NCBI GenBank assembly: GCA_018715935.1
Contig: DVKR01000037.1
Location: 1 to 54,751, forward strand
Reading direction: 5' to 3'
DNA: 54,751 nucleotides
Origin: Candidatus Aphodovivens excrementavium
GTDB lineage: Bacteria > Actinomycetota > Coriobacteriia > Coriobacteriales > Eggerthellaceae
In this document: one piece after another, positions 8,005 to 53,872 of the stretch
How positions within the stretch are numbered: position 1 is the stretch's first letter
Layout: each line of letters opens with the position of its first letter
Position numbers and translations under genes: made by a program
Notes under the pieces: generated by a model
What the model saw: only the letters and a program-made list of their open reading frames with translations
What the model was told of the DNA's origin: nothing
The model's database searches: none

Positions 8005-8182
8005 GACCTTGCGACTCCTTTCGGGGGAGAGGTATCGTTTCGTCTATTTTATCCGAGATGTCGCCTCTCAATCGTCTGTTCTACAGAAGTCACAGCTTCT
8101 ACGATTCTGGCGCTTAGCGCCGAAAGGACGCGCTCGTCTCGTTACGTGCCGCGCAACCATTCTCTTTGGTTGTGCAGCACGC

Positions 8183-8282
8183 GCCTCTTTGGCTGTGAGC
8201 TACGCGCGCGGCAAGACGGAAGCGAGCGGCGCAGGCGTGCCGACCGGGGCCTCTTTGGCTGTGAGCTACGCGCGCGGCAAGA
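8183..8282. repeat. 66-bp-period direct repeat spanning the kinase 3' end
   Basis: A 34-bp sequence at 8183-8216 recurs without change at 8249-8282. The second copy covers the last codons and stop of the histidine kinase gene (stop at 8266-8268). A degraded third relative is visible around 8160-8184. The first copy therefore contains an extra copy of the codons for the kinase C-terminus (LPRA, stop) outside the gene. Confidence 0.9.
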
Positions 8283-9906
8283 TGATGGCTCCGGAAAACC
8301 CGCAGGGCTTTTTTCTCACTTCGAAGATGCCTCCGTGGGCGCGTGCGATGCGGTCGACCAACACGAGCCCCAGCCCGTGTCCGGAATCGTCGGGCAGGGC
8401 ATCGTCGGGCGCGATGCGGGCTTGGGCTAGGCGCGCCTCCAGCTTGGCGCCCTGCTCGTCGGAGATGCCGACGCCGTCGTCTGAAACGCAAAGCTCAACG
8501 CCGGGGTCGTGCTGCAACGTGCACGCAGACAGCGTAAGCTCGACCGAGCATCCTTCCATGTTGTGCAGACGCGCATTGGCAAGGAGGTTTTCAACCATGC
8601 GAGTGAGCATGCGCACATCGCCGATAACCACCGCGTCTGCGCAGTCTTCGTCGAGCGTGAAGGAAAGCGGGTGGGTTTCGTCGAACCCGCTATTGATGTA
8701 GGAAGCGGCTATGTCGCGTAAAAGCTTGGGAAGAAAAACTCGTTCGAGCGTGAGGGGGTCGCTTTGAAACGAGAGCTGGGAGGCGGTGTTGAGATCGGCA
8801 ACGAGATCCTTGATCTTCATCCCTTGCGCGCGAATTGCCCGAGCCTCGACTCGCGTCGATTCGGAGACGCTGTGCGACGACACGATGCCGTCGGCTTTGC
8901 CGATAATCATGGAAAGCGGTGTGCGAATGTCGTGAGACACCCCGCGAATCCATTGTTCGCGAGCGCGATCCTTGTGTTCGAGGACGTCGGATGTCTCGTT
9001 GATCTGATCGGCGATGGGCTGCAGATCTCCTTTGAGGTCGAGTTGGGCACGTCCGCCGCGCGAAAGCGCCTCGAGCGCCTCGTTGATGGGCTCCACGGCT
9101 TTCTGGGTGCGGCGGCGGTAGATAACGTACGCTGCGAACAAGATAAGCAGGTCGAACAGGATGATGCCGAAAACATAGAGCGGTATGGTTCTCCATGTTT
9201 CTTCAGGCCAGGTGATGCTCATGGTTTCATAGGAGCCTTGTGGAAAGCCCACCAGCAGTATGCCGTCGGAGCGATCCCAGATAAATGCCGGGTATCCGTT
9301 GACAGTATGGAAATGCGCAACGAGAACGAGCTGGTTGGTGGTGTAGGTAGAAGGAACGGCGCCCCAGCCAGGCTCGCTTGGTTCGCGCGCCACCACTCCT
9401 GTTGGCTCCTCGCTGGCTTCCGGAACGTTGCAAGACCACAAGACGGTACCGTCCGGGCTTACGAGCTGCGCCCACGCACCTTGTTCTTCAAGTTGGGTTT
9501 GCGCCTCTGACCCAAGGGAATAGACGCCGGTTGAATCGGCTGTAAGCTGGTCGCTCACCGTTCGGGTGACGGTGGCGGGGGTGCCGTACAGGTAGTTTCT
9601 GTCCATCTCCTGCGTCGCGATAAAGACGTAGAGCATCACGTCGATCATCAGCAGCGCGGTAACCAGGGCAAGGAACCAGACTACCTGCTTTGTGAAGAAG
9701 CGGGCAAGCGAGCCTGCTCCCTTGGACCGTTTGAGACGTCGGCGACGCTGGTTTTTTCGCAGCTTGTCGGGAGGCGTCGGAGGTTCGTTGCGCCAGCTCG
9801 CTGTTGGCTTCCAGGAGCCGGGGGAATCGGTTGGGTTCGCGGATTGGCGGGACGGCTGGCACGCGCCGGCGTCAGGGGTGTCGGGGCGTTTGCTCGACGC
9901 GCTCAT
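8266..9906 (-). CDS. Sensor histidine kinase
   Basis: 546 residues. A basic, disordered cytoplasmic N-terminus (about 70 residues, with KNQRRRRLKRSK) precedes TM1 (about 77-97). An extracytoplasmic domain of about 145 residues ends at TM2 (about 241-263). The linker, HisKA with VSHDIRTPLSMI (phospho-acceptor His325) and the HATPase domain (N box ENLLANARLHN, G1 DDGVGI, G2 GHGLGLVL) follow. The gene overlaps the response regulator stop by 4 bp (ATGA). The divergent neighbour is a BceAB-like ABC transporter, which suggests sensing of a cell-envelope-active peptide or envelope stress. Classical BceS kinases lack the large external domain, so the sensing mode probably differs. Confidence 0.9.
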   Translation of the reverse strand: MSASSKRPDTPDAGACQPSRQSANPTDSPGSWKPTASWRNEPPTPPDKLRKNQRRRRLKRSKGAGSLARFFTKQVVWFLALVTALLMIDVMLYVFIATQEMDRNYLYGTPATVTRTVSDQLTADSTGVYSLGSEAQTQLEEQGAWAQLVSPDGTVLWSCNVPEASEEPTGVVAREPSEPGWGAVPSTYTTNQLVLVAHFHTVNGYPAFIWDRSDGILLVGFPQGSYETMSITWPEETWRTIPLYVFGIILFDLLILFAAYVIYRRRTQKAVEPINEALEALSRGGRAQLDLKGDLQPIADQINETSDVLEHKDRAREQWIRGVSHDIRTPLSMIIGKADGIVSSHSVSESTRVEARAIRAQGMKIKDLVADLNTASQLSFQSDPLTLERVFLPKLLRDIAASYINSGFDETHPLSFTLDEDCADAVVIGDVRMLTRMVENLLANARLHNMEGCSVELTLSACTLQHDPGVELCVSDDGVGISDEQGAKLEARLAQARIAPDDALPDDSGHGLGLVLVDRIARAHGGIFEVRKKPCGFSGAIILPRA

Positions 9907-10700
9907 TGTCCGCTCACCAGCTTGTAGCCCAGTCCTTTGACGGTTACCAGCGATTGCGGCTTGGAGGGGTTCGCCTCGATTTTCTCGCGCAGGCGCCTAA
10001 TGTGCGCCATGAGGGAGTTCTCGTATCCGAAAGACGTCCCCCAGCACGCCTCGCACAGCGCGTCGATGGTGACGATGCGTCCGGCGTTGCGGGTGAGCAC
10101 TGTGAGGATTTCGTGCTCCTTGGCGGTAAGGGCGACCGTGTCTCCGTCGGCGCGCGTGACCTCGGCGGTGTCGAAATCGACCGTGCAGAACGAGAGGTGC
10201 AAAACGGGGTTCTCGTCGGCGTAGCAGCGCCGCAGGATCGCAGAAATGCGCAGAATGAGCTCCTGGGGTAAAAAGGGTTTTACCACATAGTCGTCGGCGC
10301 CGAGTGAAAGCCCGTTTACCCGGTCGAACGGCTCGTCTTTGGCGGTGAGGAAAAGTGCGGGAACATTAGCGGTTGCGGGGGCGTTTCGCAGAAGAGACAG
10401 CAACTGAAACCCGTCCACGCCCTCCATCATAACGTCGAGCACGAATAGATCGACGCGCGGAAGTGTCGGGGCGGTTTGCGGGGTGGCGTGCGCGGATCCG
10501 CCTCCTCGAGGGTCTTTTGCGGAAATACCGCAGTAGGAAAGGGCGTCTTGCGCGCTGTGCGTAACCTGCACGTGGGAAAACCCTGCCGCGTTCAGGATCC
10601 CGCGAACCATATCGGCCAGTTCGACCTCGTCGTCCACGATGAGGATGCGTTTGTCGAGCAAATGCGATTCAAGTTGGCTAAAGGCGCTTTGATACGGCAT
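9903..10700 (-). CDS. OmpR/PhoB-family response regulator
   Basis: 265 residues from the ATG at 10700, chosen because GGAGAAAGAG precedes it; an in-frame ATG at 10730 has a poorer ribosome site. The receiver domain has the acidic pair IVDDE (residues 21-25), phospho-acceptor Asp89 in FVLDVMM, Thr in LFLTAKDE and Lys in YVVKPF. The C-terminal winged helix (about 165-265) ends in VTVKGLGYKLV. An insertion of roughly 20 residues rich in G, P, A and T (about 59-81) separates helix 2 from the phospho-Asp strand; this is unusual. It is co-transcribed with the kinase and divergent from its likely target, the ABC transporter. Confidence 0.93.
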   Translation of the reverse strand: MPYQSAFSQLESHLLDKRILIVDDEVELADMVRGILNAAGFSHVQVTHSAQDALSYCGISAKDPRGGGSAHATPQTAPTLPRVDLFVLDVMMEGVDGFQLLSLLRNAPATANVPALFLTAKDEPFDRVNGLSLGADDYVVKPFLPQELILRISAILRRCYADENPVLHLSFCTVDFDTAEVTRADGDTVALTAKEHEILTVLTRNAGRIVTIDALCEACWGTSFGYENSLMAHIRRLREKIEANPSKPQSLVTVKGLGYKLVSGQ

Positions 10701-10810
10701 GGCAATCTCTTTCTCCGTTTGGGCGCTCATCTGTCAGTTCGTTTGTATGGTAACTCATTTGCGCAGATAAACCGCAACATTCCTGTTTTGTTACGGCGCC
10801 GATACGAGGC

Positions 10811-10849
10811 GTAAGGCAAATGTAAGGACGCCACCAGCCTTGCGTAAGG
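10811..10849 (+). promoter_or_regulatory. Helically phased GTAAGG repeats (response-regulator site?)
   Basis: GTAAGG occurs at 10811, 10822 and 10844, giving spacings of 11 and 22 bp, so all three lie on the same DNA face. This pattern of tandem direct repeats is what OmpR/PhoB-family dimers usually bind. They lie between the divergent regulator/kinase and transporter genes; the last repeat overlaps a TTGCGT that could be a -35. Confidence 0.6.
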
Positions 10850-10899
10850 AAGCCTTTCTATCGTAGAGGGCGGCTTCACAACGCAGGGAAGGAGTTGCA

Positions 10900-11715
10900 A
10901 TGATGAACGAAGGCATGCCGGGGCAGATTCGGCGTCGAACTATGGTGGAAGTGCGTCATGTGAGTAAAACCTACGGGCAGGGGAGGTCGCAGCGGCGCGC
11001 TGCTGCGACGAACCAAGCGCTGAGAGGCGTGAGCTTTACGGTGGCCGAAGGGGAGTTCGTGGGCATCATGGGTCCTTCGGGCTCGGGGAAATCGACGCTG
11101 CTCAATTGCCTGGCAACGCTTGACACGCCAAGCGAGGGGACGGTGCGCATCGGCGGCGTGGACGTTGCCAAGCTGGCGGGAAAGCAGCTATCCCGCTTTC
11201 GTCGCGACGACCTCGGGTTCGTTTTCCAAGATTCCAATCTGCTGGATACCCTCACCGCATTCGAGAATATCGCGCTGGCGCTCACCATTTCGAAGACGCC
11301 CGCGCGCGAAATAGAGGCGCGAGTGAACGCATTGGCTCATCAGCTAGGGATATTCGAGGTTTTAGGGAAATATCCCTACGAGCTGTCAGGCGGGCAGAGG
11401 CAGCGGGTTGCCGCCGCGCGCGCTACTATCACGCACCCCAAACTCGTTTTGGCGGACGAGCCTACCGGCGCCCTTGACTCCAAATCGGCACGGGCGCTGC
11501 TTGAGTCGTTCACGGTGCTAAACCAGGCGGGCGCAACCATCGTCATGGTGACGCATGACTCGGTTTCGGCGAGCTACTGCGAACGCATCTTGCTGCTCAG
11601 CGACGGCGCTCTGTCGGGCGAGTTGTGTCGCGGAAGACAGGATCGTTCTGAGTTTTATCGGCGGATCGTCGATACGGCTGGCGAGCTTGGGGAGGCGATG
11701 GCCGATGCTTGCTAG
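10900..11715 (+). CDS. ABC transporter ATP-binding protein (BceA/MacB type)
   Basis: 271 residues. It shows Walker A GPSGSGKST (58-66), Q-loop VFQDSNLLDTLT, signature LSGGQRQRVAAARA, Walker B LVLADEPTGALD and the H-loop VMVTHD. The ALD after Walker B and the overall sequence are typical of the family working with FtsX-like permeases in antimicrobial peptide detoxification, lipoprotein release or cell division. The permease gene overlaps its end by 11 bp. The start at 10900 follows GGAAGGAG. Expression is probably controlled by the divergent two-component system through the GTAAGG repeats. Confidence 0.93.
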   Translation: MMNEGMPGQIRRRTMVEVRHVSKTYGQGRSQRRAAATNQALRGVSFTVAEGEFVGIMGPSGSGKSTLLNCLATLDTPSEGTVRIGGVDVAKLAGKQLSRFRRDDLGFVFQDSNLLDTLTAFENIALALTISKTPAREIEARVNALAHQLGIFEVLGKYPYELSGGQRQRVAAARATITHPKLVLADEPTGALDSKSARALLESFTVLNQAGATIVMVTHDSVSASYCERILLLSDGALSGELCRGRQDRSEFYRRIVDTAGELGEAMADAC

Positions 11716-13810
11716 GCTGGCACTGGGAAACATTCGGAAATCCGTGCGCGATTTTGCGGTGTACTTTCTCACCGTCGTTCTCGGGGTGGCGGTTTTCTAT
11801 GCCTTCAACTCTATGTCCCAGCAACGAAACGTGCTGGCGATGAGCGAGGCGCAAGAGGGCATTTTCGAACTGCTGGGCACGGTGATCGGGGGCGTTTCGG
11901 TATTCATAGCATTCGTGCTGGTGTTTTTGGTGGTGTACGCCAATCGGTTCCTCATAAAGCGGCGCAAGCGCGAGTTCGGCATCTATGCCGTTTTGGGCAT
12001 GCCCACCAGCAGCGTGATCGCTATCGTTGTGATTGAGTCGCTTGTGGTAGGCGCGGCTTCTTTGGCCGTGGGCTTGGTGCTGGGCATCGCGCTTTCCCAG
12101 GGGCTGCTCTATGTTACCTCGGCGATGTTTTCGGCAGACATTGCCTCGGAAAGCGGTTTTGCGTTCCTCTTCTCATGGGACGCGTTTGCCTACACCCTTG
12201 TTGTCTTTGCTGTGGTGTTTGTGCTTGCCGCCCTGGTGAACGCTCGCGAGGTCTCTAAGGCGCGACCGATAGACCTGCTCTATGCCGCCCGCCACAACCA
12301 GCAGATCAAACTCAAGAGCCTGCCTCTTTCCTTGGTGGTGTTTCTTGCGTCGCTGGTGCTTATCGGCGTTTCGTACAAGCTGCTGTTAGACAACGGGCTT
12401 TTGAACCTGTCTCCGCAGTTCGGGATGGCTACGCTTTTGGTGTGCGTGGGCACGGTGCTGTTTTTCTGGGGGCTGTCGGGGTTTTTGCTGCGTTTGGCGC
12501 AGTTGTGCAAGCCGCTGTATCTGCGCGGGCTGAATATGTTTGCGCTCAGACAGCTTAACGCTAAAGTGAACACCACGTTCGCGACGTTGTCGGTAGTGTG
12601 CCTCACGCTGTTTTTGGCGCTTACCAGCGTGTGCGGAGGCATCGGCATCCGCAATACGGTCGAAGACAATCTCGAACAGAGCACCTCGTATTCTGCAACA
12701 GTGAGCACGCGGTATTACTTGAGCATCTCGGACGGCTACGAGCAAGCAGAGCTTGGAGTGTACGGCGGTTATGCACGCCAGCTTGGGTACGACATGGCGG
12801 AAGGGCTTGCGCAAAGCGCTCGCGCCATTGGCGAGCAGGACGTCTCCGCTCTTGTCGATGCGGGCGTTCAAGTTGACTATCTCATTGACAGCGAAGACGA
12901 CCCGCTTACCCTTGGGAAGATTGAGCAGGCGTCGGACGTGAGCTTCTCGGAGTTTTCGGGCAACAGCGCCATTAACCCCGAGTACGTGGTGACGCCGGTG
13001 CCCATAGTTCGCCTTTCCCAGGTGAACGCAGCGCTTGAGCTGGCGGGCAGGGATCCGGTCGACTTGGGCGAAGGCGAATGCGCCTTGCTTGTGGATTCAG
13101 ACGTCACGAAGGCGTATTTCGAAGAAGTCGCGCGCAGGCAGCCCGTTTGCGATATAGGGGGCGCGCAGCTGACAATCGCGCAATGCATCGACCAATGCCT
13201 GGAAACAACTTCGTTTCCAACCAATACCGGCGCGCTTATCGTCCCCGATAGCGCGGTGCCGGATCGGGCGCTGATAATGGCGTCGATATACGACGTGCAG
13301 TGCTCGTCGGTTGAAGACGAAAAAGCTTTTGTGGATGTGTGCGATGCGATAGAGAATGCGGAGGAAGGCTCAACCTGGCCTATCACCATGACGCAAGGGA
13401 GGAGCAGCGTAATCGAGCAATCGATAAGCCTGTCCACGATAATCGCCTACCTCGCCATCTACCTTGGGTTTGTTCTGACGGTAGCCTGTGCGGCGATATT
13501 GGCGATCCAGCAGGTGTCGGAGGCCTCTGACAACGCGGCTCGCTATCGGCTTTTGTGCAAGCTCGGTGCGCCGTCGGCGATGGTTACGAAGGCGTTGTTG
13601 GCGCAGGTTGCCATCTATTTCGTATTCCCCCTCGTGCTCGCAGTCGCCCACTCCGTCTGCGCAATGCAAGTGGTAACCGATGTAGTGGCGGTATTCGGCG
13701 CGCTTGATATTGGACTGATGGTGGCAATGTGCGCCGGGGCATTCGTCGCGGTGTATGGGGTGTACTTCCTGGTTACGTTTTTTGCCGCGCGGCGAATGAT
13801 TGAAGAGTAG
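11705..13810 (+). CDS. FtsX-like ABC permease (BceB-like)
   Basis: 701 residues from ATG 11705, which overlaps the ATPase gene. The N-terminus MLARLALGNIRKSVRDFAVYF is typical of the family. About ten hydrophobic helices are visible, and a large extracytoplasmic domain (roughly residues 320-570) lies between the seventh and eighth, as in BceB. FtsX-type permease regions are near 60-230 and 580-700. It works with the upstream ATPase, most likely moving a hydrophobic or peptide substrate from or within the membrane. The substrate cannot be assigned. Confidence 0.9.
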   Translation: MLARLALGNIRKSVRDFAVYFLTVVLGVAVFYAFNSMSQQRNVLAMSEAQEGIFELLGTVIGGVSVFIAFVLVFLVVYANRFLIKRRKREFGIYAVLGMPTSSVIAIVVIESLVVGAASLAVGLVLGIALSQGLLYVTSAMFSADIASESGFAFLFSWDAFAYTLVVFAVVFVLAALVNAREVSKARPIDLLYAARHNQQIKLKSLPLSLVVFLASLVLIGVSYKLLLDNGLLNLSPQFGMATLLVCVGTVLFFWGLSGFLLRLAQLCKPLYLRGLNMFALRQLNAKVNTTFATLSVVCLTLFLALTSVCGGIGIRNTVEDNLEQSTSYSATVSTRYYLSISDGYEQAELGVYGGYARQLGYDMAEGLAQSARAIGEQDVSALVDAGVQVDYLIDSEDDPLTLGKIEQASDVSFSEFSGNSAINPEYVVTPVPIVRLSQVNAALELAGRDPVDLGEGECALLVDSDVTKAYFEEVARRQPVCDIGGAQLTIAQCIDQCLETTSFPTNTGALIVPDSAVPDRALIMASIYDVQCSSVEDEKAFVDVCDAIENAEEGSTWPITMTQGRSSVIEQSISLSTIIAYLAIYLGFVLTVACAAILAIQQVSEASDNAARYRLLCKLGAPSAMVTKALLAQVAIYFVFPLVLAVAHSVCAMQVVTDVVAVFGALDIGLMVAMCAGAFVAVYGVYFLVTFFAARRMIEE

Positions 13811-13818
13811 GTTTGAAA

Positions 13819-13903
13819 GGCGATACGGCAAAGGGAAGGCGGTAAGGCAAGGGGCAGGCGGTAAGGCAAGGAGCAAATGTCCTGTTTGGTTTTGCCCCTT
13901 GCC
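13819..13903. repeat. Three 19-bp tandem repeats plus inverted repeat
   Basis: Three consecutive 19-bp units start at 13819, 13838 and 13857, sharing the core GGCGGTAAGGCAAGG (first unit diverged). GGCAAGGGGCA of unit 2 (13846-13856) is the exact reverse complement of 13893-13903, so an 11-bp stem with a 36-nt loop can form between the convergent permease and flavodoxin genes. It may act as a terminator. Confidence 0.85.
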
Positions 13904-52216: not shown

Positions 52217-53872
52217 ATGTCAGCAGCAGACGGGGCTTCCCAAGCTTCAAGCCACGTGTTTCGCGGAGCGATTTGCGCGCTTCTCGGCGGCGCTGCGTGG
52301 GGCTTTTCGGGCACGTGCGCTCAGCTTCTGCTTGACGGTTTCGGCATTCCCGCCCTGTGGGTCACCTGCGTTCGACTTGCAATTGCCGCAGTGGTATTCA
52401 TGCTCATAGCCGTTGTTGTTGACGGAAAGACGCTGCGAGCCTGTTTGCGCGATGTGCGCTCGGTGCTCCAGATTTTTCTGTTTGCCGTGTTCGGGGTTGT
52501 TTTCACCCAGATGAGCTACTTGCTGGCAATTGCCAACACCAACGCAGGCACGGCGACGGTTATCCAGCAAATCGGCCTTGTTATCATCATGGTGGTAACG
52601 TGCGTGCGGTTGAGGCGCGGGCCGAAAGTACGCGAGGTGGCAGGGCTACTGTTTGCCTTAGCCGGCGTTTTGATTATCGCCACTCAGGGCAACCCGAGCT
52701 CTCTCTCCATTTCTCCCGCAGGGTTGTTTTGGGGGGTCATGTGCGGCATAGGTCTGGCCTGCTACACGCTTCTGCCCGAGCGGGTGCTGGGAAAATGGGG
52801 CTCGCTTTCCGTCACCGGGCTGGCCATGCTGTTCGGCGGCGTCTCCTCAGCGCTTGTGGTGCGTCCATGGTCTTACGACATCCATGTAAGCGTGGAGGCC
52901 GTTGCCGCGCTGGCAGCTCTGGTCCTTGTCGGAACGTTTCTTGCCTACCTGCTCTATCTGCAGGGAGTTAAAGATGCCGGTCCAGTGCGTGCAAGCCTGT
53001 TGTGCTGTATCGAACCGGTTTCTGCCATGGTGATTAGCGCGCTCTGGCTTGGAACCGAGGTTTCTCTTTGGGACATCGTTGGCTGCGTCCTCATCCTGGT
53101 GATGATTTTTTTGGTGACCGGCTCGCCAAAGGAGGCGGAAGAGACCTCGCCTGCTTTGGCGTCGGGTTCTGCGTCGGAAGGAGCGTCGGCAGGCGTTCTG
53201 GAGCGCGAATCCCCTATGGCCCCGGAAGGCGAAACGCAAGCTGCTCGTGGCAAGAGTGTCAAGGCGGCAACCTTGCCGAGCGACGATCCGGTATTTCGAG
53301 GCAGGGCGTCGGTGCTGGGATATTACGAAAGCCATCCTGCCACACAAGATGACTTTGCCGCAGTGCTGCGCCTTCTTCGAAGCACGCGTGAAGAGCTTGT
53401 GCGGGCGGGGCTTGAAGACGAGGGGAAGAAGTATCCCTCGTCTCGTCGTTTGATGAATACGATAAAGAAGGGCCTGCTTCACGTCGTGAGAGATGTCGAG
53501 GGGCGCATGATTGCAGTGTTCGCGGTGACCCTTGACCTAGACAAAAACTACGAGCGGGGAATCGACGGCGGCTGGGTGTCGGAATCTTGTGACCCGGGTT
53601 CTTCTCATGAGTTCAGCACTTATGCGGTGCTTCGTTGGATGTGCGTGGAGCCCGACGCTCGACAGCGTGGCGTGGGGGCGTTCATGCTCGACAAGGCGCT
53701 GGGCATCGCGCGTCTGTCGGGCAGGGTTTCTCTGCGCTGCGACGTTCATCCGAGCAATGAGCCCATGTGCCATCTGCTTGAAAAGTACGGGTTCTCCCAT
53801 TGTGGAACGATGGAGATAAAAGACGCGCTGGGTCGCGTGAAGCGTCGCGAGGTATTTGAAAGGAAGGTGTGA
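52217..53872 (+). CDS. EamA transporter fused to a GNAT domain
   Basis: 551 residues. Residues 1-305 hold ten helices forming two EamA repeats (LGGAAWGFSGTCAQLLLDGF, and GTFLAYLLYLQGVKDAGPVR with CIEPVSAMVISALWLG), a drug/metabolite transporter. A disordered Ala/Ser/Glu linker (about 306-360) leads to a GNAT acetyltransferase domain (about 370-551) with a CoA motif WMCVEPDARQRGVGAFMLDKA and LLEKYGFSHCG. The domains could couple acetylation with export or import. The open frame is continuous with no frameshift. The adjacent downstream gene is a second EamA protein that copies its membrane part. Confidence 0.88.
   Translation: MSAADGASQASSHVFRGAICALLGGAAWGFSGTCAQLLLDGFGIPALWVTCVRLAIAAVVFMLIAVVVDGKTLRACLRDVRSVLQIFLFAVFGVVFTQMSYLLAIANTNAGTATVIQQIGLVIIMVVTCVRLRRGPKVREVAGLLFALAGVLIIATQGNPSSLSISPAGLFWGVMCGIGLACYTLLPERVLGKWGSLSVTGLAMLFGGVSSALVVRPWSYDIHVSVEAVAALAALVLVGTFLAYLLYLQGVKDAGPVRASLLCCIEPVSAMVISALWLGTEVSLWDIVGCVLILVMIFLVTGSPKEAEETSPALASGSASEGASAGVLERESPMAPEGETQAARGKSVKAATLPSDDPVFRGRASVLGYYESHPATQDDFAAVLRLLRSTREELVRAGLEDEGKKYPSSRRLMNTIKKGLLHVVRDVEGRMIAVFAVTLDLDKNYERGIDGGWVSESCDPGSSHEFSTYAVLRWMCVEPDARQRGVGAFMLDKALGIARLSGRVSLRCDVHPSNEPMCHLLEKYGFSHCGTMEIKDALGRVKRREVFERKV

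Follow-up and report, generated by a model that had tools for sequence, protein, structure and literature searches.

Conserved GTAAGG direct repeats as a probable operator of an OmpR/PhoB-type regulator divergent from a BceAB-type transporter in Candidatus Aphodovivens excrementavium

Three GTAAGG hexamers in the gap between a response regulator gene and a divergent ABC transporter gene of Candidatus Aphodovivens excrementavium probably serve the neighboring OmpR/PhoB-type regulator as its operator. This protein would activate the transporter genes through a unit at +33 that takes the place of a -35 element, and it probably also tunes the regulator-kinase operon. We put the probability of this reading at roughly 0.87, with binding, activation as opposed to repression, and the inducing signal argued from what is known of the regulator family. 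The whole stretch of DNA that was analyzed, hereafter the window, is 54,751 nucleotides long, and its relevant features are compiled in Table 1.

Table 1. Predicted regulatory elements and neighboring genes in the window; offsets are relative to unit 1
Feature	Coordinates	Strand	Sequence or description	Basis
Predicted operator unit 1, offset 0	10811..10816	+	GTAAGG	sequence and family profile
Predicted operator unit 2, offset +11	10822..10827	+	GTAAGG (GYAAGG in relatives)	sequence and family profile
Degenerate unit, offset +22	10833..10838	+	ACCAGC in the window; weakly nnaagg in relatives	family profile
Predicted operator unit 3, offset +33	10844..10849	+	GTAAGG, near the expected -35 place; end 9 bp 5' of the -10	sequence and profile
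Predicted -10 hexamer, transporter promoter, offset +48	10859..10864	+	TATCGT	family profile
Probable regulator -10, offset -45	10766..10771	-	TTTATC	5/6 positions of family pattern; departs from strict pattern in the window
Histidine kinase	8266..9906	-	two membrane segments, ~147-aa extracellular domain; 4-base overlap with regulator gene	sequence analysis
OmpR/PhoB-family response regulator	9903..10730	-		PF00072 and PF00486
ABC transporter ATPase	10900..11715	+	BceA-like	sequence comparison
FtsX-type permease	11705..13810 (start approximate)	+	BceB-like, 701 aa, ~10 membrane segments	sequence comparison

The preliminary description had reported three GTAAGG copies at 10811, 10822 and 10844, spaced 11 and 22 bp, and these are indeed exact on the plus strand. 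The gene map also agrees with their placement between the regulator/kinase operon and the ABC transporter, since the array falls within the intergenic segment 10731-10899 that separates the two divergent genes. At about 10.5 bp per turn, offsets of 11 and 33 bp bring all three units onto the same face of the helix. The analysis adds to that description a -10 element (10859-10864), a unit that is skipped at +22 and a wider regulon. An exact GTAAGG-N5-GTAAGG pair is seen only once in the window, and the 2.08 Mb genome as a whole has two. The second of these exact pairs, at G000:C22:25763-25779 (minus strand, L001), precedes a dGTPase-like gene and was taken as a chance occurrence because the +33 unit and the -10 at +48 are both missing. 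Beyond the permease stop codon (13842-13866) there are two further GTAAGG copies, out of phase and with a spacing of 19 bp.

Judged by its recurrence, the GTAAGG array is a conserved regulatory site common to dozens of related bacteria. The pattern GYAAGG-N5-GYAAGG-N16-GYAAGG was found at 31 places in 26 of the 138 family genomes, 21 of these places being at a locus of the window's type, and the reversed pattern at none in all 138. Orthologous loci, oriented as in the window, numbered 54 and comprised four from Lachnospiraceae/Eubacterium and 50 from the family, where 53 loci exceeded 178 bits and those of G003, G004 and G107 were left out. The array profile, drawn from 44 of the 54 loci (score of at least 15; L034 and L035 dropped) and resting on 42 distinct arrays, has strong units at 0, +11 and +33, an A-rich spacer 3' of unit 1 and a weak unit at +22 (A25, G26 and G27 favored), the last of which is probably a weak binding unit. 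Arrays extend to Lachnospiraceae loci (L067-L070) with a transporter ATPase that shares only 25-27% identity with the window's, and no pair is seen under the strict pattern in L064-L066 and L068. The search beside homologous systems that the preliminary description had proposed thus finds the units at 0, +11 and +33 recurring with their phasing across the set of 54 orthologous loci, and its view of an OmpR-family regulator with tandem, phased repeats is borne out by the receiver and winged-helix domains together with the phasing kept in relatives. A single GTAAGG is not rare, and the mild over-representation in the window (17 seen, 11.3 expected) would suit hexamers that arose by chance and have no function, a reading left with negligible probability by the conservation of spacing, -10 element and locus over the 54 loci.

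The regulator combines a receiver domain (PF00072) with a Trans_reg_C winged helix (PF00486), and another ATG at 10700 is a possible alternative start. Its receiver seems to carry an extra stretch at about residues 65-90, with the best Pfam stretch beginning only at residue 92 (9903-10730). The variable place of the recognition helix covaries with the motif: each of the 11 rows with threonine there (LMTH) has at least one unit reading GTCAGG or GTTAGG, A is kept as the third motif base in 37 of the 40 rows with alanine (LMAH, LNAH), and two rows with a LAIL helix have GAAAGG. This covariation fits direct recognition of the repeat by the regulator, but it provides no statistically independent evidence because the alanine/threonine switch happened once on the tree, which leaves the sign test with one independent pair and powerless. 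The array is assigned to the regulator on the ground that in L069 and L070 it stands beside a divergent transporter of the LanFEG-type, lantibiotic-protection kind, and the GTAAGG units (0, +11 and +33) and the -10 at +48 are nonetheless present; as read from these loci, it goes with the regulator clade and not with the kind of transporter.

GTAAGG pairs also occur in a second type of site. Some relatives have TNACA-N4-CGTAAGG-N5-GTAAGG, followed by ATCGATGG and a -10, at another BceAB operon (L178-L187), where it lies between the kinase gene and the BceAB-type operon, 3' of that operon's own kinase and regulator. This site resembles the Bce-like inverted repeat described in the available part of PMC10858260, joined to a direct repeat, and a BceR-type regulator of these relatives appears to use GTAAGG-N5-GTAAGG too; such pairs are therefore not peculiar to the regulator of the window. 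It could be supposed from these BceR-type modules, with their GTAAGG-N5-GTAAGG beside a BceR-like inverted repeat, that the array of the window is bound by a different regulator, for example of BceR type, while the adjacent regulator acts elsewhere. We consider this very improbable, as the BceR-type site differs in having TNACA upstream and ATCGATGG downstream and adjoins its own regulator gene, only three GYAAGG pairs exist in the window's genome and none is of this BceR-associated TNACA/ATCGATGG type, and the array tracks the window-type regulator clade even beside other transporter kinds. The third unit and the upstream arm are the features by which, on the sequences compared, the two site types are told apart.

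The operator reading gains further support from the promoter on the transporter side. TANNNT is found at +48 in 34 of the 42 distinct arrays, all of which have an A at position +49 and a T at position +53, and the rightward -10 is at +48 in 43 of the 54 loci as against none of 1080 Markov-resampled sequences. At the position where a -35 would be expected, the best match to TTGACA in the 42 distinct arrays does not exceed 3/6. Seven of the 54 loci (L036, L050-L052 and L064-L066) have neither the rightward nor the leftward -10 at the expected offsets. A sigma-70 scan of 10650-10960 returned a sole, weak -35/-10 pair at 10875-10904, which overlaps the start codon and was judged spurious.

On the regulator side, 35 of the 54 loci have a leftward -10, matched with a slightly relaxed reverse complement of YWTAMT, at a distance of 43-46 bp ahead of unit 1; among Markov-resampled sequences (1080 draws) the rate is 0.2%. 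Three loci with long intergenic regions (L009, L019 and L022) have a regulator-near pair with a leftward -10 only and a transporter-near triple with a rightward -10 only, 298-451 bp apart, while loci with a single array (e.g., L021, L028, L069 and L070) have -10 elements on both sides of it. Since the two-array loci give one array per promoter, control of both divergent genes is supported, across the family and less firmly in the window, where the leftward -10 deviates from the pattern at one base and control of the regulator operon is for that reason less sure. The earlier suggestion that the site may control both genes therefore stands for the family, through the two fixed-distance -10 elements and the two-array loci, and is less certain for the regulator's own gene in the window. 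It would be conceivable that the operator serves the adjacent regulator at the transporter alone and that the window's regulator-kinase operon is constitutive. Such an arrangement would account for a TTTATC off the strict pattern and for the genus mate L008, where 254 bp separate the array from the regulator and a second, regulator-near pair is lacking, and according to the accessible parts of two papers on Clostridioides difficile, lantibiotic does not induce CprR expression (PMC10601699, PMC7918085). We nevertheless regard it as unlikely, given the leftward -10 at a fixed distance in those 35 loci, the separate pair devoted to it in two-array loci, and the match of 5/6 at the exact offset in the window.

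The pair with a -10 at +48 was also found outside the regulator/transporter locus. Three such sites are directly 5' of DUF1093/YxeA-family genes (G086, G087 and G089), and when the 450 bp upstream of 30 DUF1093 loci were scored, eight reached at least 18, a level that 300 shuffles never approached beyond 15; all eight genomes with a high-scoring upstream region also encode a window-type regulator. The window's own genome has no DUF1093 gene. It does contain a second array, GCAAGG-N5-GCAAGG-N9-TACAGT (G000:C21:53344-53360), which corresponds to the +22/+33/-10 part of the window's architecture and stands 73 bp upstream of a 32-aa open reading frame with one hydrophobic segment (G000:C21:53192-53287; frame and array together span 53192-53360, minus strand; L147, L223). 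The frame and its promoter are present in all three genus genomes, and in G017 yxeA follows the frame. Weaker homologues of the frame in G051 and G053 have a GTAAGG unit upstream, accompanied in G051 by GCAAAG at +33 and TATCGT at +48. The frame and operator are kept in G018 (L224), in whose assembly no window-type regulator was found. In the genome of the window, the C21 site is probably a second member of the regulon and, because this promoter mainly keeps the +22, +33 and -10 elements, it suggests that these form the core of the promoter architecture. Apart from these sites, GTAAGG followed by TCGATGG was observed 5' of several yxeA-like genes (L196, L197, L199, L201, L202, L206 and L207; GTAAGA in L198).

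The mechanism that we propose begins with the kinase: equipped with an outside domain of its own, it would sense a peptide antibiotic or envelope damage and phosphorylate the regulator. The phosphorylated regulator would then bind head to tail on the 11-bp-spaced units along a single face of the DNA, one dimer occupying the strong 0/+11 site and another the weak +22 unit together with the +33 unit. The latter, 9 bp upstream of the conserved -10, would substitute for the -35 and recruit RNA polymerase to the transporter genes. The same array is about 45 bp from the regulator's -10 in most relatives and probably also tunes the regulator-kinase operon.

The transporter that would be switched on via the array probably defends the cell against antimicrobial peptides. 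Its permease has a loop of about 250 aa between the 7th and 8th membrane segments and matches the sequence of the BceB structure 7tcg with an E-value of 1.8e-21 and that of a PsdB structure with 2.2e-16. The kinase can be aligned with a Lachnospiraceae kinase over 489 columns, outside domain included, at 31% identity, and its outside loop of 147 aa compares with 115-135 aa in most readable relatives; no kinase was recognized in 20 of the 54 loci, owing to the motif used or a short flank. Close to where the kinase gene stops and in the gap that follows (about 8114-8491), one frame contains a repeated stretch (AARVAHSQRG twice), possibly a short DNA repeat or terminator. Divergent transporter ATPase starts were found in 52 of the 54 loci, 41 of them at least 55% identical to the window's and 11 only 25-28% identical. 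A different ATPase type stands beside a window-type regulator and operator words in L067-L070, L057 and L059-L061, an apparent transporter exchange. The ATPase was lantibiotic-protection-like in the tested loci L069, L070 and L060; a LanF ATPase plus two small permeases is present in L069 and L070 (the ATPase only for L060), where the window has a single FtsX permease. In a quick tree built from the 54 regulators, the BceAB- and LanFEG-linked rows require two changes, from which no direction is inferred.

A BceB-like permease together with a kinase that has an outside domain of about 147 aa means that a transporter of Bce type adjoins a Cpr/Lan-like two-component system, and the module looks like a hybrid of CprK/LanK-like kinase and BceAB-type transporter. 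Tentatively, and at somewhat less than even odds, it may be read as a hybrid peptide-defense module in which the kinase senses peptides directly and drives the BceAB-type transporter, and in which the kinase-regulator-operator unit stays intact while the transporter type (BceAB or LanFEG) varies by lineage. A YxeA-like protein would belong to the regulon of some species, and the conserved 32-residue single-helix membrane peptide, which possibly modulates the kinase or the transporter, to that of the window's genus. We contend that motif, spacing, promoter positions and a small regulon together offer a testable regulatory code for probable antimicrobial-peptide resistance modules in the window's family and in Lachnospiraceae. 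Sensing and transport, usually tied together in Bce systems, thereby become separate questions, and an unannotated membrane peptide emerges as a candidate member of the regulon in the genome that the window comes from.

A comparison with known systems places the module between several of them. According to the available parts of PMC5786555 and PMC10858260, Bce modules have short-loop kinases (~25 aa) that leave sensing to the transporter; in Cpr modules the kinase loop measures 112-117 aa and the transporter is LanFEG-like. Like BceRS-BceAB (Bacillus subtilis BceRSAB and PsdRSAB), the window has a BceA-like ATPase, a BceB-like permease and an OmpR-family regulator, and the permease, at ~250 aa, has the long loop of BceB-like proteins (~10 segments, ~200 aa between the 7th and 8th). 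Unlike them, it lacks a short-loop, intramembrane-sensing kinase, its own having ~147 aa between the two membrane segments, and its operator consists of direct repeats and not of the TTACnAnnnnGTnAG inverted repeat. A AnnTTACnAnnnnGTnAG inverted repeat is reported for Bce-like sites in the part of PMC10858260 that was available; TTACnAnnnnGTnAG is not found in the 10 bases 5' of 10811 (GATACGAGGC), nor do such letters appear upstream of unit 1 in the family profile. The long outside loop of the window's kinase is closer to CprABCK-R/LanFEG of Clostridioides difficile (~147 aa vs about 113 aa, according to the accessible text of PMC5786555), and relatives with a window-type regulator and operator encode lantibiotic-protection ATPases. 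The window differs from these systems in its BceAB-type transporter and in its regulator and kinase genes, which lie together and divergent from the transporter. The accessible sections of PMC10601699, PMC7918085 and PMC5786555 state no DNA motif for CprR, a literature search in partly available sources found no described operator linking GTAAGG with response regulators or lantibiotics, and one of limited coverage found no paper on Eggerthella together with BceAB.

The regulon of the relatives recalls a further system from B. subtilis, as a DUF1093/YxeA-family gene joins it. The yxeA gene is linked to a Bce-type operon in yxdJK-yxdLM-yxeA, whereas it is unlinked in these relatives and absent from the window's genome. 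For the operator itself, the closest class is that of the pho box, in which an OmpR-family regulator occupies direct repeats set at intervals of about 11 bp along a single face of the DNA and the downstream unit replaces the -35 near the -10. The window shares with PhoB/OmpR tandem-repeat operators a regulator with receiver and Trans_reg_C domains, one-turn direct repeats conserved with their spacing, and a fixed-distance -10 with no -35; it differs from them in the word GTAAGG, in the 0/11/(22)/33 array and in the use of one array for two divergent promoters. By this likeness of layout, the window array is probably a variant of the PhoB/OmpR-type tandem-repeat, -35-replacing activator site.
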